A DNA stretch of 28,695 nt from a virus. Under the pieces are notes generated by a model that made no database searches, was not told the origin of the DNA, and saw nothing but the letters and a program-made list of their open reading frames with translations. The stretch is taken from positions 1 to 28,695 of IMG/VR virus record IMGVR_UViG_3300028925_005788. One strand, given 5' to 3'. A program made the translations under genes and the position numbers. Shown here one piece after another: positions 2,788 to 26,425 of the stretch (position 1 is the stretch's first letter; each line of letters begins with the position of its first letter).

Positions 2788-3003
2788 ATGGCAGTTGAAT
2801 TCTTAGGGACTGGAAACGACGAGGGAGTAAACTTCGGTCGTTCCTCTACCGACAAGATAGGCTTTTACGGTCTGACCACGCCAATCGTGCAACCGACCCT
2901 GACAGCCTCAAACACAGCTACGGCTACCACCACGATCAACGAGAGGCGTATTGATTCTATCGAAACGATTCTAGTTAATCTCGGTTTGTGTACAACCGTA
3001 TAA
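2788..3003 (+). CDS. Small head-module protein, function unknown
   Basis: A 71-residue protein directly after the coat gene with a clear ribosome site (GGAG at 2778-2781) ahead of the ATG. It is Thr/Ala-rich in the middle (about residues 34-50), has no cysteine pair, membrane segment or enzyme motif, and ends in a short helical stretch (RRIDSIETILVNLGL). The gene sits between two GC-rich hairpins, so it is likely expressed with the coat gene at high but separately tuned levels. A minor head or decoration protein is a reasonable guess from position and length, but nothing in the sequence demonstrates it. Confidence 0.7.
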   Translation: MAVEFLGTGNDEGVNFGRSSTDKIGFYGLTTPIVQPTLTASNTATATTTINERRIDSIETILVNLGLCTTV

Positions 3004-3016
3004 GTTAAACCGTGTC

Positions 3017-3034
3017 GGGGGGCTTCGGCTCCCC
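3017..3034 (+). terminator. UUCG hairpin, possible partial terminator
   Basis: GGGGGGC (3017-3023) pairs with GCTCCCC (3028-3034), seven pairs including one G-U, closed by a very stable UUCG tetraloop. It lies 13 bases after the 71-residue gene's stop codon. The bases after it (ttcacttt) are only moderately T-rich, so partial termination or RNA stabilisation is likelier than complete termination. Confidence 0.6.
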
Positions 3035-3054
3035 TTCACTTTAAAAGGATCTTC

Positions 3055-4350
3055 ATGAGTTTTTATTTTACGGACAAAGGACTGCCGAAGGAAAAAGGGA
3101 AACGGAAAGTTTGTCTTGCTACTACGGTATACGATTGTATTGAGCCAGCGTATACGTTTGCGATGTCTAAGTGCCGGGAGGTTCTGCACAAGCGAGGTAT
3201 ACAGACGGCTTATTTTTTATTGCAAGGTAATTGTCATGTGGATGACGCGAGGAACTCAATTGTTAAAGAGTTTCTGCATTCCGACTGTGATGAATTAATT
3301 TTCATAGATGCTGATTCGGGCTGGGAGCCGAAAGATCTGGTGCGAATTTGTAAGCACGATGTGGATGTTGTTGGTGGGGTTGTCCCTTACAGAGCGGAGA
3401 ACAGAAAGGCCATGCCTGTCCGTATGGCGGTGGGCGTTAACGGGCCTGATGATCGCGGACTGATGAAGGTGGACGGTCTGGGAACAGCCTTCCTGCGGAT
3501 ACAGCGCAAGGTGCTGGAGAAACTATTCGACCAAGCCGACAAGCACAACACCGAGTTCGGCAAGGGAGAGAAGACCGCAATTATTTTTGAAAGAACATTC
3601 GCTGATGGTATCAGGTTCGGCGGTGATTTAAGTTTTTGTAATAAAGCCAGAGCCGCAGGGTTTGAATGTTATGCAGACTTTGAGATGATACTCACCCATG
3701 TTGGCAAGACCGTGTTCCGGGGCAGTCTGGGTCAGACTTTAAGACGGGCCAACAGCGCAACGGTTGCCCATGTCGCGAAGATATTAGGGGACAAAGCTGA
3801 AACGATTGAAACGATAGAAGAGTTGGTGATAGCTATCGGGAATTCTTATTCAATGGACGTGCCGGGTTTGACCACGCTGATGTTGTTGGCGAGAAAAGCT
3901 GACGGCCCTATCCTTGAAGCAGGGAGTGGCCTGTCAACCCTTGTCATGGCGGCGGCGAACCCAGACCAGATAGTGTATTGCCTTGAACATGATGAAGGTT
4001 ATGCAAAAAAACTCAGAAGCTGGGCGAACTCTGCGGGGTTGACCAATATTGGCCTGTGCCTATGTCCTATCAAAGACGGGTGGTACGACTTGGAGGAGAT
4101 GGACGGCTTGCCTGAACATTTTTCTCTTGCACTTGTCGATGGGCCACCACAGACTGAAGCGAGTCGGATGCCATTCTTTGAGCAAGGGTTCGCTGACAGG
4201 TGCGACACTGTTGTTTGCGACGACGCAGGCACACATGGCTACGCGGACAAATTAAATGAGTGGGCCGATCTGAAAGGCAGGACATTCAATCAGATTGACC
4301 CTCGCATGGTTATCATTGGAGAAACGGAGACGGTAGAATGTCTTTCCTGA
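3055..4350 (+). CDS. Glycosyltransferase-methyltransferase fusion
   Basis: A 431-residue two-domain protein. Residues about 15-230 resemble a GT-A fold glycosyltransferase: a first strand KVCLATTVYD, the acidic metal/sugar-nucleotide motif DAD at 85-87 within LIFIDADSGW, a GGDLSFCNKA segment at 189-198 and HVG at 215-217, as in many family-2 enzymes. Residues about 265-430 look like a class I SAM-dependent methyltransferase: LEAGSGLST (287-295) is the SAM-binding loop, an acidic residue follows strand 2 (CLEHDE), and LVDGPP (360-365) matches the motif IV position. The donor and acceptor are unknown; virion glycan or host surface polysaccharide are options. The gene lies between head and adaptor genes, and its end overlaps the adaptor start by 13 bases. 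Confidence 0.75.
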   Translation: MSFYFTDKGLPKEKGKRKVCLATTVYDCIEPAYTFAMSKCREVLHKRGIQTAYFLLQGNCHVDDARNSIVKEFLHSDCDELIFIDADSGWEPKDLVRICKHDVDVVGGVVPYRAENRKAMPVRMAVGVNGPDDRGLMKVDGLGTAFLRIQRKVLEKLFDQADKHNTEFGKGEKTAIIFERTFADGIRFGGDLSFCNKARAAGFECYADFEMILTHVGKTVFRGSLGQTLRRANSATVAHVAKILGDKAETIETIEELVIAIGNSYSMDVPGLTTLMLLARKADGPILEAGSGLSTLVMAAANPDQIVYCLEHDEGYAKKLRSWANSAGLTNIGLCLCPIKDGWYDLEEMDGLPEHFSLALVDGPPQTEASRMPFFEQGFADRCDTVVCDDAGTHGYADKLNEWADLKGRTFNQIDPRMVIIGETETVECLS

Positions 4351-5066
4351 CAATAGCTCAAGATGTTTTAATCGCGGTTGACTTTCCATCTCCGTCGAAT
4401 GCTTTCGCCAACAACGACCCGGCAGTAAAAAAAGTGAGACGATCTATCGAGTCATCTTCCTACGCCCTTGCAAGAGTTAATGCGTGGAAGACGATGCGCG
4501 GGGAACAAACATTCACGTCACTGGCGGCAGAAGTGCAGACAGGAATATTGCCAGCCGGGTTCGACCGATTCATACCTGAAACATTTTGGAACCGCACAGA
4601 TAAAAATTTAGTTATAGGGCCGATCACAGAGGTTGAGTGGGCAAGCCTTAAAGCGTATGGATACGCTGACACCTCAAGACCCAAATTCATTCAACGTGGC
4701 AACACTGTGGCCTCATCCATCCTGATGATACCCGCGCCGTCGGCTGGGAAGACCTTTGCGTTTTCTTATGTGAATAGTTATTTCTGCCAGTCCTCTAGTG
4801 GGACAGCGCAGTCGGCATGGGCGGCAGATACGGATGTGGCAAGACTTAACCCAGAGCTTGTAACGCTCGGCGCGATCTCTGACTTCCTCTGGATGGAAGG
4901 CATGAACCATGAGAAGGCCGACAGTGATTTTGAAGATCTATTTAATCTACTTGTAAAAAATGATAACCCTAGAGCTAGGGCAATGTCCTGCGGAGATATT
5001 TTCGGATCACGAAGACATTTCACGGGATCGCCTGCTTCAACGGGAAACTATAACATGACATCTTAG
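4338..5066 (+). CDS. Head-to-tail adaptor protein (putative)
   Basis: A 242-residue protein starting MSFLTIAQDVLIAV, followed by helical segments (VKKVRRSIESSSYALARVNAW, about residues 33-53, and DFEDLFNLLVK near 197). Short-tailed phages encode an adaptor of this size, of the phage SU10 or T7 tail-tube type, which begins with a similar helix and has an aromatic 'W' after a row of alternating residues. It forms a ring below the portal. The location, just upstream of the tail hub gene, agrees. It begins inside the end of the fusion gene, so translation is probably coupled. Family membership is inferred from the N-terminal pattern and gene order. Confidence 0.6.
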   Translation: MSFLTIAQDVLIAVDFPSPSNAFANNDPAVKKVRRSIESSSYALARVNAWKTMRGEQTFTSLAAEVQTGILPAGFDRFIPETFWNRTDKNLVIGPITEVEWASLKAYGYADTSRPKFIQRGNTVASSILMIPAPSAGKTFAFSYVNSYFCQSSSGTAQSAWAADTDVARLNPELVTLGAISDFLWMEGMNHEKADSDFEDLFNLLVKNDNPRARAMSCGDIFGSRRHFTGSPASTGNYNMTS

Positions 5067-9795: not shown

Positions 9796-11073
9796 ATGTA
9801 CCATCTGACAAAAGTATTCGATCCTTTCGAGCCAGAACTGGTTGAATGGCCTACTAAAATATTGAAGGCGTGTGACCAAGGGAAGGGCGGAGGGTCACCT
9901 CCCGCACCACCTCCAGCCCCTCCGGCCCCAGACCCTGTTGCCACTGCCGTTGCTCAAGGCGCACAGAACCGCGCCGCTGCAATTAGTCAAGCTGAGATCG
10001 CAATGGTCAACCAGCAGACTCCTTACGGCGCATTGGCATGGGAGCAACGCGGGACTTCACCGATCAGCGTAGATGAGGAAGGTATCACATACGGCGGGAC
10101 TCCGCAGTACACCGCGACTCAGACACTGTCACCGGAACAGCAACTAATCCTTGACTTAGGGAATCAAGCTCAGATCGGATTTGGAGAAACAGCAAACACT
10201 CAACTGCAAAATGTTACTGATCGACTGGAGCAACCGATTGACTTCAGCGGGATTGCAGCAGCCCCGACGATTGACATAAATTCTTTTGTCGGCAACGCTC
10301 CGACCGCAGACTTCTCTGGGATCGCGCAACCGGGCCAACTTGATTACTCAAGCCTCGGTACACGTCCTGAGTTCAATCAGCAGTTCATGGATGACGTATC
10401 CCAAGGCATAAGGAACCGCGCACAGCCTTGGCAGGACAGGCAGCTTGGTCAACTAGAAAACAGGTTGACGAATCAGGGCATCAACATTGGAACCGAAGCA
10501 TGGAACAAAGAGATGGATCGGAACCAAGTTGGTATAAACGATTTCAATCTTGCGGCTGATCAGAATGCCTTGCAACAGGCTAGTCAGTTCTTTGCTAATG
10601 AGCAGGCATCGCGCAACCAAGGACTTAATGAACTGGGTCAACTTCGCTCCTCGCGGGTTTCTGATCGTGACCGTGCAATCGCAGAAGCGTCTCAACTCTT
10701 CGGGTTGGAAGCTAACGCGAGAGATCGTGCAGTCGCAGAGGCTAGTCAGTTGTTCAGCCTACAAGCGGGTGGCAGAGACAGGGCTATCAATGAATTGATG
10801 TTGCAGAGAAACCAGCCTCTAAATGAGTTGGCTGCAATGTTGAGCGGACAACAGGTAGTCCAGCCGAATTTCCTGACACCGCCACAGCCTACGATTCAGG
10901 CTGGCGATCTACAAGGCGCGACGTACGCAAATTATCAAGGGGCGTTAGGACAACAGCAAATGCAGAACCAAAATAACTTGATCGGCTACCAAGCGAATCA
11001 AGCGGCGGGTAACGCCATGACGGGTGGGCTGATGGGCCTCGCCGGGTCAGGCATGATGGCATACGCAATGTAA
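9796..11073 (+). CDS. Internal virion / DNA-ejection protein
   Basis: A 425-residue protein with a Pro/Ala-rich segment (about residues 34-48), a conserved-looking start of the domain (NQQTPYGALAWEQRG, near 74) and LSPEQQLILDLGNQAQIGFGE near 115, then long Gln/Asn-rich helices. Two exact-length 18-residue repeats (RDRAIAEASQLF and RDRAVAEASQLF) begin at 10666 and 10720. The C-terminus is a Gly/Met-rich hydrophobic stretch (MTGGLMGLAGSGMMAYAM), which could insert in a membrane. Helical, repeat-rich proteins with a hydrophobic end are typical of podovirus ejection proteins. A GGAG site precedes the ATG. Role inferred from composition and position. Confidence 0.65.
   Translation: MYHLTKVFDPFEPELVEWPTKILKACDQGKGGGSPPAPPPAPPAPDPVATAVAQGAQNRAAAISQAEIAMVNQQTPYGALAWEQRGTSPISVDEEGITYGGTPQYTATQTLSPEQQLILDLGNQAQIGFGETANTQLQNVTDRLEQPIDFSGIAAAPTIDINSFVGNAPTADFSGIAQPGQLDYSSLGTRPEFNQQFMDDVSQGIRNRAQPWQDRQLGQLENRLTNQGINIGTEAWNKEMDRNQVGINDFNLAADQNALQQASQFFANEQASRNQGLNELGQLRSSRVSDRDRAIAEASQLFGLEANARDRAVAEASQLFSLQAGGRDRAINELMLQRNQPLNELAAMLSGQQVVQPNFLTPPQPTIQAGDLQGATYANYQGALGQQQMQNQNNLIGYQANQAAGNAMTGGLMGLAGSGMMAYAM
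10666..10791 (+). repeat. 54-base in-frame tandem repeats in ejection gene
   Basis: Units start at 10666, 10720 and 10774, each encoding RDRA(I/V)(A/N)E; the first two are full 18-residue copies ending LFGLEANA and LFSLQAGG, the third diverges after eight residues. They encode a repeated amphipathic helix. Confidence 0.75.
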
Positions 11074-11795
11074 TGATTATTCACTTTAGTGGTGGAAAAG
11101 ACAGCCTCGCGGTTGTCCATATGTTCAAGGACGATCCTGACCTAGAGTGTGTTTACTTCGGGGACACGGGTGATGCCTACCCGCACATGATGGAGTTTGC
11201 TATTGAGACTTGCAAGAAGTTCAAGGTTCCGCTAAAGATCATAAAGGCAGAGATGAGCCAGAAGGAATACCACGACAAATTCGGCTTGCCTTCCGACATG
11301 ATCCCGATCGTCAGGACACCGGAAGCAATGCCGATCAGGAAAGAAAGCGGGGAACAAAAGATCCAGTCCTTCGTTCAGTGTTGCGCGGAGATGCTGTGGC
11401 TACCGATATACAACGCATCGCTGGGCAAGACAGTCTACCGTGGCATCAAGAAAAGCGACGAACACAGGACGATGGGCGGGGATAAGATTACAGACAAGAA
11501 CGGCATAACGTGGGTTAATCCGATCTACGACTGGACGGACGACGACGTTTTCGACTACCTGAAGAAGCACAACGTCGAGCCTGCGCGACATTATAAACAA
11601 GTGAACGTCAGTCTGGACTGTGTCCGGTGTACGGCACACACGCACTCACCGACTGCGGTGGACAGATTGCGCTGGACAAAGGAAAATTACCCGAGCTACT
11701 GGCCTGAAATTGTCAGCAGATTTAAAAAAGTTGATGAAGCTGTTAAGGCAGAAAAGAAATTAATTGACGAACCGTTTGACTTCGTTCTGAACTAA
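11073..11795 (+). CDS. PAPS reductase / ATP pyrophosphatase family protein
   Basis: A 240-residue protein with the PP-loop SGGKDS at residues 6-11, which binds the ATP or adenylyl-sulfate phosphates in the PAPS reductase, CysD and related family. A DTGDAYPHMMEF segment follows (31-42), and PIYDWTDDDVFDYLKKHN (150-167) is the standard substrate-side signature. Cysteines stand as a pair (103-104) and as CVRC (183-186), which could bind a metal cluster or act in catalysis. The gene lies among ejection genes; its ATG shares one base with the preceding stop. Sulfur assimilation, nucleic-acid thiolation and host metabolism control are all possible; the sequence does not decide. Confidence 0.8.
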   Translation: MIIHFSGGKDSLAVVHMFKDDPDLECVYFGDTGDAYPHMMEFAIETCKKFKVPLKIIKAEMSQKEYHDKFGLPSDMIPIVRTPEAMPIRKESGEQKIQSFVQCCAEMLWLPIYNASLGKTVYRGIKKSDEHRTMGGDKITDKNGITWVNPIYDWTDDDVFDYLKKHNVEPARHYKQVNVSLDCVRCTAHTHSPTAVDRLRWTKENYPSYWPEIVSRFKKVDEAVKAEKKLIDEPFDFVLN

Positions 11796-19170: not shown

Positions 19171-19198
19171 TTGACATTTCCCCCCATTTTGCTATTCT
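19171..19198 (+). promoter_or_regulatory. Sigma70-like promoter
   Basis: A perfect -35 TTGACA (19171-19176), a 16-base spacer and a -10 TATTCT (19193-19198) lie in the 114-base gap before the 82-residue gene, followed by an A/T-rich leader. It is the only such pairing I noticed in an intergenic gap and marks the change from virion genes to nucleic-acid genes. Confidence 0.7.
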
Positions 19199-19248: not shown

Positions 19249-19497
19249 ATGAAAGCACAAAAGTATTACACCCTCGTAGGAACCTTCCAAAAAAATCCGT
19301 GGGAAATTATTTTCGGTGATTACGACCGAGAAGTCGTTGAAGATGAAAGAGCCGACATTAAAGACTACGGAACCGACTACACCAAATTTAAAATCATCAC
19401 CACCTCTGACGCACAAGCCGACATCGAATGGGCTGTTTCGGTTTTAAACGCGAAGCAATATTTGGGAAATACCACTAACGCTCTGACGAGTCCGTAA
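19249..19497 (+). CDS. 82-residue protein whose end is part of a ribozyme
   Basis: The ATG at 19249 is chosen over an in-frame codon at 19210 because AAGGAG at 19237-19242 is correctly placed. The protein is MKAQKYYTLVGTFQKNPWE onwards, acidic, with FGDYDREVVEDERAD near residues 23-37 and a KIITTSDAQADIEWAV segment near 47-62. No motif of known function is visible. It is the first gene after the promoter. The last eight codons (from 19477) also encode the 5' arm and core of a hammerhead ribozyme, and the TAA stop lies in that ribozyme's stem II loop, so the C-terminal NALTSP is constrained by RNA structure. Confidence 0.75.
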   Translation: MKAQKYYTLVGTFQKNPWEIIFGDYDREVVEDERADIKDYGTDYTKFKIITTSDAQADIEWAVSVLNAKQYLGNTTNALTSP

Positions 19498-19527
19498 GGA
19501 CGAAACTCCCTGCGGGGAGTCAGCGTT
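19477..19527 (+). ncRNA. Hammerhead ribozyme 1 (type I)
   Basis: All core positions match. Stem I is AACGCT (19477-19482) with AGCGTT (19522-19527). The core CUGACGA is 19483-19489. Stem II is G-UCC (19490-19493) with GGA-C (19498-19501) around a GUAA GNRA tetraloop. GAA is at 19502-19504. Stem III is ACUCCC (19505-19510) with GGGAGU (19515-19520), loop UGCG. The cleavage nucleotide is C19521 in a GUC triplet. Stem I is the open helix, which makes it type I. Cleavage after 19521 would leave the DUF932-family gene with a 35-base leader containing AGGAG. Confidence 0.93.
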
Positions 19528-19556
19528 TAAAATTAATCTAATCTCAGGAGATCCAA

Positions 19557-20615
19557 ATGAAAACAGCAAAAAGCATTATCGAACTCGCAACAGAAATCCA
19601 ACGCCAGAACGAATTGAAAAAAGACTTCATCGTCCCGACACAGGTCGCGGCAGTTGCGATCAATGGCGCACAGCAGATCCAGTTCAATGGCAACGTCTAC
19701 GACTTGACCGACCACGCACTCGCGCAGGTTGCTGACCGATTGAAGATCCCGAAACGATACCTCGATTATCTTCGCGCAGAGTTCCCTTCTCTGTTGGAAA
19801 ATAACATCAACGAACTTTTCAAAAAATTCCCCGAGCAAAGAATGATCCGCACCTTGGATGGTCAGGCCCGTGCATTTTTGTCTGACCGCTACCGACCGCT
19901 TGATAACGCTGAACTCGCCAACGCGGTTTTTCCTGCTCTGCAAAAAGCTGAAGCGAAGATCGTATCTTGTGAGATCACTCCGAAGAAACTTTACATCAAG
20001 GCGGTTCTGCCACAGATCTCCGCGCTGATACCCGGCGGTTCTCACTTAGGTGATGACAACTTAAATCCCGGTCTTACGATCAGTAACTCCGAGATTGGTA
20101 CAGGTGGCCTGACAGTTCTGCCAGCCTTGCATGATCCGAAGTGTACGAACCTCTGCACCTTTTCTTTCGCCAAATACAGCAAGTACCACTTAGGCGGCAA
20201 GGGCGCGACTGACGACCAGTACAACGTTTATACGACCGAGACAAAGCAACTCGCCGACGCTACGGTGTTCGCGCAACTGACCGACGTGGTCAAGGCAAGC
20301 ATGGGTGGTGAGGTGTTCCAGCAGATCGTTGATCATGTGAAGACGGCACGAGGCAACAAGGTCGCGCCCACACAGGTGACCAAGGTGATCGAAGTTGTCT
20401 CACAAACGCACGGTTTCAATGAGGACGAGAAGGGGTCTGTTCTGGCCCACCTGATCGAGCGTGGTGACCTTTCACAGTGGGGCGTATCTTCCGCTATCAC
20501 CCGAGCGGCAGAGGACGTTGCTGACTACGACAGAGCCTCTGAGCTTGAGACGATTGGTGGTCATGTTATCGAACTCCCTGCCAACCAGTGGCAGACCATA
20601 GCAAACGTCGCATAG
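19557..20615 (+). CDS. DUF932-family phage/plasmid protein
   Basis: A 352-residue protein with the family's hallmarks: YDLTDHALAQVADRLKIP (48-65), RAFLSDRYRPLDNAEL (105-120), a LYIKAVLP strand (145-152), GLTISNSEIGTGGLTVLPA (172-190) and a Cys-Thr-Asn segment (196-198). DUF932 proteins are common on phages and plasmids; their biochemical role is not established to my knowledge. AGGAG (19546-19550) precedes the ATG. Ribozyme 1 cleaves 35 bases upstream of the ATG and ribozyme 2 begins at the last base of the TAG stop. The gene could therefore be released as a separate 1136-nt RNA (19522-20657) with a 5'-hydroxyl and a 2',3'-cyclic phosphate end. Confidence 0.85.
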   Translation: MKTAKSIIELATEIQRQNELKKDFIVPTQVAAVAINGAQQIQFNGNVYDLTDHALAQVADRLKIPKRYLDYLRAEFPSLLENNINELFKKFPEQRMIRTLDGQARAFLSDRYRPLDNAELANAVFPALQKAEAKIVSCEITPKKLYIKAVLPQISALIPGGSHLGDDNLNPGLTISNSEIGTGGLTVLPALHDPKCTNLCTFSFAKYSKYHLGGKGATDDQYNVYTTETKQLADATVFAQLTDVVKASMGGEVFQQIVDHVKTARGNKVAPTQVTKVIEVVSQTHGFNEDEKGSVLAHLIERGDLSQWGVSSAITRAAEDVADYDRASELETIGGHVIELPANQWQTIANVA

Positions 20616-20662
20616 TCCTCTGAAGAGCGCGACACGAAACTCCCCTTCGGGGGAGTCAGGAC
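20615..20662 (+). ncRNA. Hammerhead ribozyme 2 (type I, very short stem II)
   Basis: Stem I is GTCCT (20615-20619) with AGGAC (20658-20662). The core CUGAAGA is 20620-20626. G20627-C20635 supplies the required first pair of stem II, around CGCGACA, in which only one further pair (G629-C633) is possible. GAA is 20636-20638. Stem III is ACUCCCC (20639-20645) with GGGGAGU (20650-20656), loop UUCG. Cleavage is after C20657 in a GUC triplet. All core bases fit; the weak stem II is the only caveat. Stem III and its flanks closely resemble ribozyme 1, suggesting common origin. Confidence 0.82.
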
Positions 20663-20684
20663 AATGGAAAAAAAGGAGAAAAAA

Positions 20685-20909
20685 ATGACGCACTTATACC
20701 ACGTTACATTTTCAAGAAAAATCACAATTTCAAGTGAGGAAGTCTTGACCGAAGAGGAGATAGCTGAGAAAGCTAAGAAAGATCTTTACACGTTTAATAA
20801 TGTCCCACAAAGTCACCTCGACAACACGGTTGTTTCTGTCAAGGCTTTTCTTAGAAGCTACCATCCTTCAGACTTAATTAAAGACTACGAAATCCAACAA
20901 ACTATTTAG
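20685..20909 (+). CDS. 74-residue protein, unknown
   Basis: The start at 20685 is preferred over an in-frame ATG at 20664, because AAGGAG (20673-20678) lies six bases upstream. The peptide MTHLYHVTFSRKITISSEEVL is followed by a charged helix (TEEEIAEKAKKDLYTF) and a polar C-terminus (YHPSDLIKDYEIQQTI). No family is recognised and no membrane segment is present. Ribozyme 2 would cut 27 bases before the ATG, leaving this gene with a short leader that carries only the ribosome site and the 3' arm of stem I. Confidence 0.65.
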   Translation: MTHLYHVTFSRKITISSEEVLTEEEIAEKAKKDLYTFNNVPQSHLDNTVVSVKAFLRSYHPSDLIKDYEIQQTI

Positions 20910-21677: not shown

Positions 21678-21756
21678 AATCACGCAGTCGCAAGTTACTG
21701 TCATGGAGTCCTTGAGGTTATTGGTCACAGACATCGACGAGGATAACCAATGCTAA
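21487..21756 (+). CDS. 89-residue helical protein, unknown
   Basis: The start at 21487 is chosen for its AAAGGAG site (21474-21480); an in-frame GTG at 21451 has no better site. The peptide begins MTEKEPQQSQAPVYPPLIVG, then a long helix (QMLERLTDDVGRMAIQSA, about residues 21-38) and a second helix (FVQIEKQLKDLEVAIAKI, about 48-65) ending in Asp/Glu. It looks like a coiled-coil dimer. No family is recognised. Its end overlaps the HU/IHF gene by seven bases, so the two are probably translationally coupled. Confidence 0.65.
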   Translation: MTEKEPQQSQAPVYPPLIVGQMLERLTDDVGRMAIQSATNQGYNKATFVQIEKQLKDLEVAIAKITQSQVTVMESLRLLVTDIDEDNQC

Positions 21757-22025
21757 AAATTGACATAGCGGAGCGGGTGGCTCAAGCCACGCAACTTGGA
21801 CGGGCGGAGTCGATCAAAGCGGTCGATGTCCTCTTCGCCACGGTCAAGGCTATTCTTGCCGAAGGCCACTCTCTAGACATCAGAAAGTTCGGGGGTTTTT
21901 CTACACGAAAAAAAAGAGAGCGTATCGGGCGGAACCCGAAGACCAAAGAGCCATGTACAATAACAGCGCGAACAGTTATGAGTTTTAAACCGAGTAAACA
22001 ATTAAAAGAAAAGGTGAATTTATGA
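21750..22025 (+). CDS. HU/IHF-family DNA-binding protein
   Basis: A 91-residue protein of standard HU/IHF length. It has the N-terminal helices (IAERVAQATQLGRAESIKAVDVLFATVKAIL), the turn GHSLDIRKFGGFSTRKKRER (39-58), and the beta-arm sequence GRNPKTKE (60-67) containing the Arg-Asn-Pro intercalating tip, ending in VMSFKPSKQLKEKVN. Such proteins bend or package DNA. A phage copy may assist replication, recombination or packaging, or substitute for the host's factor. It overlaps the preceding gene and, as ATGA, the following small membrane protein. Confidence 0.9.
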   Translation: MLKIDIAERVAQATQLGRAESIKAVDVLFATVKAILAEGHSLDIRKFGGFSTRKKRERIGRNPKTKEPCTITARTVMSFKPSKQLKEKVNL

Positions 22026-22174
22026 GAGCATATTCGGAAGCAGATCTACTATTAATTTTGGTCGGCGTGTTGCTGTTTATTTTTGGTAGCATCTGCGCTT
22101 ACGTTTTATATTGTTGGAACGAAGAAGTTTTTGAAGACGAAATAATGGAGGAGCAATATCATGATTACGAATGA
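22022..22174 (+). CDS. 50-residue single-pass membrane protein
   Basis: ATG at 22022 overlaps the HU/IHF stop (ATGA), and the frame runs to TGA at 22172-22174, overlapping the start of the exonuclease gene (22161). The peptide has a hydrophobic segment at about residues 8-30 (DLLLILVGVLLFIFGSICAYV) and an acidic cytoplasmic-like tail (NEEVFEDEIMEEQYHDYE). Overlap at both ends and the clear membrane helix support expression. Its last codons also hold the GGAG and ATG used by the exonuclease gene. A similar end, MEQYHDEDED, occurs at 26120-26149. Confidence 0.6.
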   Translation: MRAYSEADLLLILVGVLLFIFGSICAYVLYCWNEEVFEDEIMEEQYHDYE

Positions 22175-23123
22175 ACAAAAAGAATTGAAAGCTGGAAGGC
22201 TCGGAGCGTCGCAAGTTGCGGCGGCTCTGGGCCTTTCGCCGTTTCAAACCCCGGCGCAACTGGCAATGGAGATCCTCGGCAGGATACCTGCGCAGGTAGA
22301 GAACGACGCGATGCGTGGCGGGAACATTATGGAACCTGCAATCGCAAAACTGTATACATCACAAACAGGGATTGATATTTTTCCCGACAACACAACCTAC
22401 ACTCACCCAGAATACGACTGGCTGATCTGCCATCCCGATTATTATAAACCCTGTGGACTAGAAAGCAGGACTCTGATCGAAATCAAGAACGTCGGCGCAC
22501 GTCAGCGTTACCGCTGGGATGAAGGTGTCCCGGTTCACGTGGTCGCACAGGTCGTGCTTCAGTCTTTGTTGACTGGCTGCACTGACGTGGAAGTCGTTGC
22601 CTTCTTCGGCGGCTGGGAGGTGGAGATCTTCCCGCTGACCATTACCAAAAAACAGCAAGACGGATTGCTGTACAAGGTCGCCGCCTTCTGGGTCGATTGG
22701 ATTGAAAAAAATATGATACCGCCAGTCTGCGATAAAGATCTTGAAATGATAAAAACCTTGTACCCCACGTCGGACAACGTGGAAGAGGCAACCGCGACAC
22801 CAAAGGTTATGGAAGATGTTAAAAGTTTCAGGGAATATAAAATTCTTCGCAACCAGATGGACAAAACCATTGGGACGCTGGAAGCTAAGATCAGGTTGAT
22901 GATGGGGGGCTCGGCGATTCTTCTTAACCCTGACGGCACGAGGGAGTTCACCTATAAGCAGGCGAAGCCTTCGGTCAAGACTGACTGGGAGAATATGGTT
23001 CTTGAATTGTGCGACGAGTACGAAGTGGACTCTTTGCGCTATGATAATTTTTTAAACAAGAACACAAAAACAAAAGAGGGATCACGTCGGTTCCTCGACA
23101 AACACGTTTACGATAAGGACTAG
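22161..23123 (+). CDS. YqaJ-type viral exonuclease / recombinase
   Basis: A 320-residue lambda-exonuclease-like protein of the PD-(D/E)XK fold. It opens with KAGRLGASQVAAALGLSPFQTP (10-31), typical of YqaJ proteins, and has MRGGNIMEPAIAKLY (51-65) with E58. Likely metal ligands are D93 (HPDYY) and E107/K109 in LIEIKN. The helix HVVAQVVLQSLLTG (126-139) is the usual substrate-binding element. Such enzymes resect one strand of a duplex so that RecT can anneal the exposed strand, and a RecT gene follows at 23891. The ribosome site is GGAGGAG; the start overlaps the preceding gene by 14 bases. Confidence 0.88.
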   Translation: MITNEQKELKAGRLGASQVAAALGLSPFQTPAQLAMEILGRIPAQVENDAMRGGNIMEPAIAKLYTSQTGIDIFPDNTTYTHPEYDWLICHPDYYKPCGLESRTLIEIKNVGARQRYRWDEGVPVHVVAQVVLQSLLTGCTDVEVVAFFGGWEVEIFPLTITKKQQDGLLYKVAAFWVDWIEKNMIPPVCDKDLEMIKTLYPTSDNVEEATATPKVMEDVKSFREYKILRNQMDKTIGTLEAKIRLMMGGSAILLNPDGTREFTYKQAKPSVKTDWENMVLELCDEYEVDSLRYDNFLNKNTKTKEGSRRFLDKHVYDKD

Positions 23124-23124
23124 C

Positions 23125-23730
23125 ATGGACGAATTTGACACAGGCTGGGATCTCGAAAAGATTCATGACACGGTCATTCTGTTGCGCGAGTACTGGGATC
23201 ACCGCAGTCCACAGATCCCCTTCTACACGCTAGGCAAGGCGGCATATCTGGACGGAAACACCGACGCATATTTTGAGGGCGTTAAAACGGTCAACCCGAT
23301 CTTAAAAGATTATCTTGGTTTTATGTATGACGATCTAAAAGATATGCTCTCGGCAATTTTGCGGGAACCTGTCGGAACCCTTCCCAGCGTTGCCTTGCCG
23401 GGGTTCCATGTTTTTCCGAGTGACCCTGTGTTCCTTGGAATGTGGGGGAACTGGCACGTCGATATTCCGCATCAAACACTAAGCCTTGGCAACCAAGAAC
23501 CTTGGGCGTTCACTGTCGCGATCACCCTGCCCACTGGTGGGGCTGGTCAAGACAGGCGGATCGACAACAAAGAAGTGTATCTTGAATATGAGCCGGGTAA
23601 AATGTATCTGACAAACGGTGAGACAGTTCACCGGATCACTTCTTACAAAGAGTATGTTCCAAACGAGTACCGAGTCACTTTGCAAGGTCACCTGATCAGG
23701 GTGGACGGCAGTTTAATAATGTTCTGGTGA
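23125..23730 (+). CDS. 2OG-Fe(II) oxygenase-like protein
   Basis: A 201-residue protein with the jelly-roll oxygenase signature. HVD at 111-113 provides the first His and Asp iron ligands, H169 in NGETVHRI is the distal His and R183 in EYRVTLQGH sits where a 2-oxoglutarate-binding Arg is expected. Strands AFTVAITLPTGG (128-139) and YEPGKMYLTNGE (155-166) fit the fold. Substrate unknown: protein side chain and nucleobase hydroxylation are both known for the fold. It is placed between the exonuclease and annealing-protein genes, starting one base after the exonuclease stop. Confidence 0.7.
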   Translation: MDEFDTGWDLEKIHDTVILLREYWDHRSPQIPFYTLGKAAYLDGNTDAYFEGVKTVNPILKDYLGFMYDDLKDMLSAILREPVGTLPSVALPGFHVFPSDPVFLGMWGNWHVDIPHQTLSLGNQEPWAFTVAITLPTGGAGQDRRIDNKEVYLEYEPGKMYLTNGETVHRITSYKEYVPNEYRVTLQGHLIRVDGSLIMFW

Positions 23731-23734
23731 AAAC

Positions 23735-23887
23735 ATGAAGCTAGAAAACATCGAAGCATGGATCAAAGGGAAGCCCGAATACACGGTAACCAAGAGCGGG
23801 AAGAAAAAGAAGGAGAGAGAATTTCACCGCTACTCTTGTTTCCTTAGACTGGTTATCCTCACACTTTTAAAATTAGCAAAGGAGTAA
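23735..23887 (+). CDS. 50-residue Lys-rich small protein, possible
   Basis: ATG at 23735, four bases after the oxygenase stop, opens a frame to TAA at 23885. The peptide begins MKLENIEAWIKGKPEY, then a very basic run (SGKKKKEREFHRYS) and a hydrophobic end (FLRLVILTLLKLA). No ribosome site stands out at 5' distance, although the gap fits the operon spacing. Its last codons contain the AAAGGAG ribosome site of the RecT gene, so translation of it would pass directly to RecT. It may be a real small gene or a chance reading frame. Confidence 0.4.
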   Translation: MKLENIEAWIKGKPEYTVTKSGKKKKEREFHRYSCFLRLVILTLLKLAKE

Positions 23888-23890
23888 ATC

Positions 23891-24964
23891 ATGAATGAAG
23901 TAGCAACAGTAAAACCCAACGAGAAAATGCAAACCATCACCGACCTTATAGAGATGAGGAAGGGTGAGATCGCCAAGGCCGCGCCGAAGATTCTGGACAC
24001 CACTAGACTGACACGGATCTGCCTGTCATCAATCCAAAAGAACCCGCTCCTGTTGGAGTGTTCCCCAGCGTCTCTAGTTCGCTGCATAATGGACGCGGCG
24101 ACATTCGGCCTTATACCCGATGGCGCAACAAACGAGGCCCACCTAGTCCCGTTCTACTCTTCTAAGAAGAAACAGTACGAATGCCAGTTCATGCCGGGAT
24201 ACTCTGGAATTATTAAGCTGGCCCTTCAGTCAGGATTTGTCAACGGCGTGGAGCTTCACGAGGTCTATGCTAACGACGAGTTTGATTTTAGGTATGGCCT
24301 AGATCCAATGTTGAATCACAAACCAACAGAGGGCAAGACAGGGGATCTGCGGGGAGTTTACTGCATCGTGTTCACATCCACTGGGCATAAGACCTTTGAG
24401 TTCATGAGCAAGACAAAGGCTGAAGAGCATAGGGACAAGTTTTCCAAGTCCAAGAATAAGTCCGGTCAACACTATGGCCCTTGGGCGGATCACTTCACTG
24501 CGATGGCGATGAAGACAGTCCTGAAAAAAGGATTGAAGTACACGCCGAAGTCAAGCGAACTTGCCGCCGCATTGTCTCTCGACAATCTCCAAGAAGCGGG
24601 GCTTGATCGGGATGATCCGACGATTGACATCACTCCACCAACAGGCCCAGCAAAAACTGGGACGGCAGGATTTGAGAATGCGCTGGGTGAAGGGGCGATT
24701 AATGTAGAGGACACAATGACGGCTGGCGATGATGGAGACATCCCGCTGGACGGTGACCCGACTGACCCGAGCGTTGATCTGAAGCTGGCGATCTGTGACC
24801 ACTTGGAAGATATGTTCCCTAAAAACAAGAAGAAGCAATTGCAACATCTTCTCGGAACCGTGGAGAAAATTTGCGATCCTTCTTTTGATTTTCTTTCGAT
24901 CAAGAATGTCGAAGGACTCACATCTAAATTAGCGGCGCAGGTTGCCAGCGTTTATTTCAAGTGA
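23891..24964 (+). CDS. recT: RecT-family single-strand annealing protein
   Basis: A 357-residue protein. Residues about 15-235 match the RecT core: LLLECSPASLVRCIMDAATFGLIPDGATNEAHLVPF (54-89), MPGYSGIIKLALQSG (101-115) and the FTAMAMKTVLKKGLKY region (about 202-217). It anneals complementary single strands and works with the exonuclease encoded upstream. The C-terminal 110 residues are an acidic, Gly/Thr/Asp-rich linker followed by a short helical tail, longer than in classical RecT and possibly a partner-binding extension. The ribosome site is AAAGGAG. Its stop overlaps the next gene's GTG start. Confidence 0.88.
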   Translation: MNEVATVKPNEKMQTITDLIEMRKGEIAKAAPKILDTTRLTRICLSSIQKNPLLLECSPASLVRCIMDAATFGLIPDGATNEAHLVPFYSSKKKQYECQFMPGYSGIIKLALQSGFVNGVELHEVYANDEFDFRYGLDPMLNHKPTEGKTGDLRGVYCIVFTSTGHKTFEFMSKTKAEEHRDKFSKSKNKSGQHYGPWADHFTAMAMKTVLKKGLKYTPKSSELAAALSLDNLQEAGLDRDDPTIDITPPTGPAKTGTAGFENALGEGAINVEDTMTAGDDGDIPLDGDPTDPSVDLKLAICDHLEDMFPKNKKKQLQHLLGTVEKICDPSFDFLSIKNVEGLTSKLAAQVASVYFK

Positions 24965-26012: not shown

Positions 26013-26163
26013 AAGAAGGCTTACCACTAGGACACAGTGTTCTCCTAAAAAAAAGAACATGCGAACTGCTGAAGCGTTGAAGAAAGCAAAACTAACAAAA
26101 TACTCAAAACTTTTATCTATGGAGCAATATCATGATGAAGACGAAGATCAAACCAATTACTGA
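25981..26163 (+). CDS. 60-residue basic protein, possible
   Basis: A Lys/Arg-rich frame (MKISKFNRKIKRRLTTRTQC and on) that overlaps the end of the 25806 gene by 32 bases and the GroES-like gene by 32 bases. GGGGGAGG lies directly before the ATG, so spacing is poor. Its C-terminus, MEQYHDEDEDQTNY, resembles the end of the small membrane protein at 22022. The A-rich base composition could give a Lys-rich frame by chance, but both ends lie in the coupled gene string. Confidence 0.35.
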   Translation: MKISKFNRKIKRRLTTRTQCSPKKKNMRTAEALKKAKLTKYSKLLSMEQYHDEDEDQTNY

Positions 26164-26425
26164 CAGAGTATGGGTAAAGCCGACAGAGAAGAAGACCCAG
26201 CTTCCTAGCGGGATTCACTTACCACAGGCGTTTGCAAATTCTATAAAAGGTTCTGGAAGTTCTACGACAAAGGGAACTGTCCTATATGTCGGGCCAGAGG
26301 TTACGACGGTTAAAAAGAATGATGTCGTTTACTTTTCAGATTTTACTGGGATGGAAATTAATTACGAAGAGTCACTGGTTTTAGTTATGAAAGAAGATGA
26401 GATCATGGCGGTGGATCTTGGATGA
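26132..26425 (+). CDS. GroES-like co-chaperonin (Cpn10)
   Basis: A 97-residue protein of GroES length. IKPITDRVWVKPTEKKTQLPSGIHLPQ (about residues 6-32) has the strand 'IKPLxDRVxVKP' and a mobile-loop Ile-x-Leu (IHL) comparable to GroES IVL, followed by a longer loop (NSIKGSGSSTTK). GTVLYVGPEVTTVKKNDVVYFSDF (48-71) and LVLVMKEDEIMAV (83-95) complete the barrel. Phage co-chaperonins such as T4 gp31 work with host GroEL to fold coat protein. Here it is encoded beside replication genes, not head genes. The start at 26132 or 26135 cannot be separated; GGAG lies upstream. Confidence 0.88.
   Translation: MMKTKIKPITDRVWVKPTEKKTQLPSGIHLPQAFANSIKGSGSSTTKGTVLYVGPEVTTVKKNDVVYFSDFTGMEINYEESLVLVMKEDEIMAVDLG

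Follow-up and report, generated by a model that had tools for sequence, protein, structure and literature searches.

The window analysed here is a stretch of viral DNA of 28,695 nt (IMG/VR record IMGVR_UViG_3300028925_005788, positions 1 to 28,695), in which two type I hammerhead ribozyme motifs on the same strand, termed HHR1 and HHR2, bracket a single gene encoding a DUF932-like protein (19557–20615). An earlier note, made from the sequence alone, had placed both hammerhead cores here, the first 35 bases ahead of the start codon and the second beginning at the last base of the stop codon. These placements were confirmed by a pairing descriptor and a covariance model: ATG 19557 lies 35 nt downstream of the first cleavage site and stem I of HHR2 begins at 20615. 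The features of the locus are as follows.

19249–19497, + strand: upstream ORF of 82 aa with no family match (translation, profile searches)
19440–19451, + strand: strand competing with HHR1; 12 bp with 19524–19535 in the minimum-energy fold of 19440–19560, a possible alternative to stem I
19477–19527, + strand: HHR1, type I hammerhead (descriptor, covariance model, shuffle background, fold)
19477–19482/19522–19527: HHR1 stem I, 6 bp
19483–19489 and 19502–19504: HHR1 core, CTGACGA and GAA
19490–19493/19498–19501: HHR1 stem II, 4 bp, GUAA loop
19505–19510/19515–19520: HHR1 stem III, 6 bp
19521/19522: predicted HHR1 cleavage, after C19521 (GUC)
19522–19556, + strand: 35-nt leader of the DUF932 mRNA after HHR1 cleavage, AGGAG at 19546–19550; a 5'-OH is expected from hammerhead chemistry
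19557–20615, + strand: DUF932-like protein, 352 aa (phrog_1362; profile match, AlphaFold2 model with pLDDT 93.8)
20607–20611, + strand: GUCGC in the last DUF932 codons, possible pseudoknot strand, complement of GCGAC in HHR2 loop II (20629–20633)
20611–20666, + strand: HHR2, type I hammerhead (descriptor, covariance model, shuffle background)
20615–20619/20658–20662: HHR2 stem I, 5 bp, followed by an A.A mismatch and three outer pairs (CAU/AUG)
20620–20626 and 20636–20638: HHR2 core, CTGAAGA and GAA
20627/20635: HHR2 stem II, the G20627–C20635 pair alone, followed by a C.A mismatch
20639–20645/20650–20656: HHR2 stem III, 7 bp, capped by a cUUCGg loop
20657/20658: predicted HHR2 cleavage, after C20657 (GUC)
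20685–20909, + strand: next downstream ORF, 74 aa from ATG 20685, AGGAG at 20674–20678; 27-nt leader after HHR2 cleavage

HHR1 carries the CUGANGA and GAA core, the A15.1–U16.1 pair, an NUH cleavage site and three helices with an open stem I, as is typical of type I hammerheads, and HHR2 likewise has CUGANGA and GAA, A15.1–U16.1 and an NUH site. Both motifs are interwoven with coding sequence: HHR1 overlaps the upstream 82-aa ORF, whose TAA stop (19495–19497) forms the last three bases of the GUAA loop II, whilst stem I of HHR2 starts at the final base of the DUF932 TAG stop (20613–20615). The description of the pair as matched did not hold, as the two differ in stem I and stem II architecture. 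Nor was a clear promoter found for the promoter-driven transcript that had been envisaged; upstream, a single 10-of-12 match was seen (19171–19198), and promoter-like matches there were not above chance.

When a covariance model was built from 68 phage hammerheads outside the window, HHR1 scored 52.5 bits (E = 1.5e-11) and HHR2 38.6 bits (E = 6.4e-8), the next-best match in the window reaching only E = 1. In 20 Mb of Markov-shuffled window sequence the loosest descriptor returned 16 matches, none of which equalled HHR1 or HHR2 in the strength of stems I and III, and chance is therefore not a satisfactory explanation for either motif. No further hammerhead was found in the record, even when one core mismatch was allowed. 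The minimum-energy fold of 19472–19535 is the HHR1 hammerhead itself. An Rfam scan of the window at gathering threshold gave no match, and both motifs fell below threshold with Rfam's own hammerhead models; HHR1 aligns end to end with RF03152 (RAGATH-1-hammerhead) at 26 bits, under the gathering score of 56.3, but lacks a convincing RAGATH-1 upstream hairpin and loop. KCNQ1OT1 and other sub-threshold Rfam matches in the window were dismissed as chance. Since the aligned hammerheads had been selected by the pairing descriptor, counts of pairs in their alignment are to some extent circular. The near relatives of the locus comprise only two near-identical contigs (99.7 %), which give no covariation test; a nucleotide search of phage records returned no match, and RecT used as bait recovered a single near-identical contig.

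The bracketed protein matches the phrog_1362 profile over residues 17–342 (E = 1.1e-47). Its assignment to the DUF932 family in the earlier note stands through its relatives, in that proteins at 35–42 % identity to it pass Pfam PF06067 (DUF932), whilst the protein itself has no match to this model. The confident AlphaFold2 model returned nothing with E below 0.001 in a Foldseek search against the PDB, structure comparison with VIA gave Z of at most 4.2, and a sequence search for DUF932 function produced nothing at a useful E-value; with no significant PDB match by this route, we do not claim a function. Amongst phages related through the capsid (31–83 %), hammerheads were seen only in G043, and the DUF932 gene is absent from the covered parts, many of these records being fragments. 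Either the gene is an accessory cassette or the records simply do not cover the locus. Elsewhere, the window encodes a GroES-like co-chaperonin (26132–26425; PF00166 Cpn10, E = 4e-14), a PAPS reductase-like protein within the virion structural gene block (11073–11795; PF01507), and an HU/IHF-like protein, a YqaJ/RecE-like exonuclease and a RecT annealing protein (21750–24964).

A gene-isolating pair of hammerheads had been thought unusual, but the arrangement is already known, since single-gene flanking and activity were reported by Perreault et al. 2011 (PMC3088659). In that paper, prophage hammerheads flank individual genes 'on many occasions', tandem hammerheads cleave in vitro (one set in E. 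coli), and the flanked genes are not constant. As here, the clustered hammerheads described share a strand and sit at either end of one gene, and processing to single-gene mRNAs was proposed; their named example is ardA, however, whereas the two type I copies in the window have unlike stems I and II. An association with DUF932 is not reported in the accessible text. Our own survey, by pattern scan and descriptor, of viral contigs points the same way, with 145 distinct type I hammerheads on 72 contigs, and with one predicted ORF in 62 of the 84 intervals of <3 kb between neighbouring hammerheads (the ORF calls are mechanical and such counts approximate). For 127 of the 145, an upstream ORF of ≥50 aa ends inside the ribozyme or ≤25 nt before it. 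The commonest stop-to-ribozyme offset is 0 or +1 nt (HHR2, +1) and a minor group lies at ∼+20 (HHR1, +21); in 21 of the 145 the core TGA is itself the stop codon. Between the cleavage site and the following start codon the median spacing is 28 nt, compared with 35 and 27 nt in the window. Thus, the window fits a general phage layout of stop-codon hammerheads. The bracketed genes of the survey are diverse, with 75 ORFs falling into 47 clusters and single matches to anti-restriction, ligase and helicase/primase families.

What is new is the recurrent association of this gene family with ribozymes, rather than the layout of the pair. Two sets of viral records were chosen by DUF932-like protein homology alone and scanned in full with models for type I hammerheads (R1), type II hammerheads (RF02276) and Twister-P5 (RF02684). 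The count left out the window's own phage and L117, a record found via its hammerhead, as well as weak R1 matches in L187/L188 (E ∼0.1). Eight of 19 ribozymes lay at the DUF932 gene's own junctions, compared with ∼0.5 expected (4 of 6 in the first set and 4 of 13 in the second; the rest elsewhere in the records), giving P ∼1.5e-8 by hit and ∼3e-6 by record, values that are indicative, as the gene density is rough, independence is assumed and L146 is below the Rfam threshold. The following ribozymes were seen at DUF932 genes, including those from local descriptor scans or inspection by eye.

L177: type I hammerhead 5' and Twister-P5 (57.6 bits) just 3' of DUF932
L175/L176: type II hammerhead 3' of DUF932
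L146: Twister-like 3' of DUF932; 34.7 bits against a cut-off of 37.6, E = 2.8e-7 for the record
L368/L289 (Treponema): type I hammerhead 3' of DUF932
L406, L411: type I hammerhead 3', core TGA being the DUF932 stop codon
L399: Twister-P5 5' of DUF932
L194, L418: type III hammerhead 5' of DUF932 (local descriptor scans)
L369: hammerheads on both sides of DUF932 (3001–4059), seen by eye; 3' core CCGATGA (U4 to C)

The search of other DUF932 loci for pairs that the earlier note had suggested thus yielded both-sided bracketing in L177, by a hammerhead and a Twister, and probably also in L369, by hammerheads. Twister-P5 (in L177, L146 and L399), which also self-cleaves and occupies the same gene boundary as the hammerheads of the window, belongs to an unrelated ribozyme class. 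The 10 rows with a ribozyme, placed on a tree of 161 DUF932-like proteins, call for no fewer than 9 changes, of which well-supported branches enforce 7 (the window's row sits on a long branch and its placement is unsure); the trait has been gained and lost often. Loss of the conserved core with retention of the gene, which in close relatives would according to the earlier note speak against the claim, is seen at the level of the family, whilst the close relatives consist of the two near-identical contigs. In most of the DUF932 relatives no ribozyme was detected; the gene can thus do without such elements, and yet it attracts them. In the literature searched we found no report of this association; the RAGATH gene list of Weinberg 2015 lies outside that search, and a prior mention there is possible. 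We tentatively propose, at somewhat less than even confidence, that DUF932-like (phrog_1362) genes have been repeatedly selected for self-excised mRNAs, with unrelated ribozymes (type I, II and III hammerheads and Twister-P5) gained at their borders in at least several independent events, in some cases on both sides, and that the product must be expressed apart from its operon.

For the window itself, we consider it reasonably probable, judging from the sequence, that both hammerheads self-cleave within a polycistronic transcript and release an autonomous DUF932 mRNA. The HHR1 cut would free the 5' end of the message, leaving a 5'-OH and a 35-nt leader with its own ribosome-binding site, whilst the HHR2 cut would form a 3' end just past the stop codon, consisting of a stable UUCG-capped hairpin with a 2',3'-cyclic phosphate. 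With both cuts the gene would therefore become an autonomous mRNA of 1136 nt, and the layout agrees with the release of one gene on an RNA of this predicted length as first suggested. Translation and decay of this message would be uncoupled from those of its neighbours without the need for a promoter or terminator, with a possible effect on stability or dosage. In HHR2, a pseudoknot formed with the last codons of the gene would take the place of most of stem II. Counting against this reading, HHR1 stem I could be displaced in its wider context by the 12-bp pairing of 19440–19451 with 19524–19535.

The activity of HHR2 is less certain because its stem II amounts to one pair. In wider context it folds no better than shuffles (z −0.70), with a predicted fold that lacks the full hammerhead, and the relatives available for comparison at the site are near-identical. 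It could thus be that HHR1 alone is active and that HHR2 has decayed, leaving its stable UUCG hairpin as a 3' element. We nevertheless regard such a single cut as unlikely, as HHR2 retains an intact core and intact stems I and III (at the E-value given above) and loop II has a complementary partner, although a 5-nt complement has a ∼5 % chance of occurring within a random 25-nt stretch. Perhaps this 5-bp pseudoknot rescues the one-pair stem II. Pseudoknot-stabilized hammerheads (PMC3088659; PMC11300833) similarly have hardly any stem II, together with a loop that can pair with the stem I flank, and in the former paper one with a one-bp stem II and a 6-bp pseudoknot cleaves at >1.2 per min in 0.5 mM Mg2+; in HHR2, by comparison, the putative partner is a single strand in the coding end, and the pairing would span 5 bp. 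Far less credible is a pair that ligates via its ribozymes to give circular or spliced RNA in the manner of retrozymes (PMC4918200), in which paired hammerheads also surround one RNA segment. In other arrays (viral loci L006–L124) such ligation is geometrically possible: of 73 pairs of neighbours, 47 have a stem I compatible with the swap, whereas for shuffled partners the proportion is 20 %. Common descent of the copies might account for this as well. Circular and spliced products were, however, sought without success by Perreault et al. (PMC3088659), and, whereas the identical repeats of retrozymes can religate into circles (PMC4918200), the ends in the window are not complementary. A swapped stem I, made of the HHR2 5' strand and the HHR1 3' strand, has 2 pairs, and the ends do not re-form one ribozyme. 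Ribozyme-templated circularization of this pair hence appears unlikely from its sequence. Host RtcB could circularize RNA without base pairing.

Two further readings were weighed. The ribozymes might be interchangeable devices for mRNA 3' ends or segment boundaries that sit at stop codons and have no function peculiar to DUF932; placement at stop codons is indeed general among phage hammerheads, the genes bracketed elsewhere are diverse, and Perreault et al. likewise describe inconstancy of the flanked genes. We consider this rather unlikely, however, as ribozymes are concentrated at DUF932 junctions in both record sets, which were picked irrespective of ribozymes, and as all scans together gave four ribozyme architectures there, in addition to the both-sided cases. 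Alternatively, terminating ribosomes might block ribozyme folding, such that cleavage reports translation of the upstream gene. This accords with the upstream stop codon in loop II of HHR1, the DUF932 stop abutting HHR2, and the core TGA that serves as a stop codon in 21 survey hammerheads as well as in L406 and L411. Such overlap is, however, partly mechanical, because an ORF that enters the CTGANGA core will probably run into a stop in any case, and we hold this reading to be distinctly improbable. The purpose of phage hammerheads has been open since 2011 because the flanked genes are unrelated. DUF932 genes that have recruited ribozymes, set beside sister genes without them, offer natural paired comparisons for mRNA stability, dosage and timing, and recurrent recruitment as proposed here predicts that levels of the DUF932 protein are critical to these phages.

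A number of additional observations were made in the scanned records. Both L369 hammerheads have one extra base between core and stem II, the upstream core being CTGACGA, and together with L368 they may represent a core-variant hammerhead subclass in Treponema-type phages. L399 carries three Twister-P5 in 1.5 kb (1511–1567(−), 1784–1849(−) and 2914–2970(+)), two of them on the strand opposite to the third. In L175, type II hammerheads (4156–4181 and 4887–4916) bracket the gene after DUF932, and so type II pairs isolate single genes too; a strong hairpin in the same record (2921–2975), lying between the upstream stop and the DUF932 start, resembles stem III plus stem I without a core, and was rejected as a ribozyme, having no Rfam support. 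Lastly, amongst the survey contigs, L098 (2806–6443) and L044 (2231–9485, minus) each contain nine hammerheads in a row, approximately one per gene and each near a stop codon, in what amounts to gene-by-gene segmentation of an operon.
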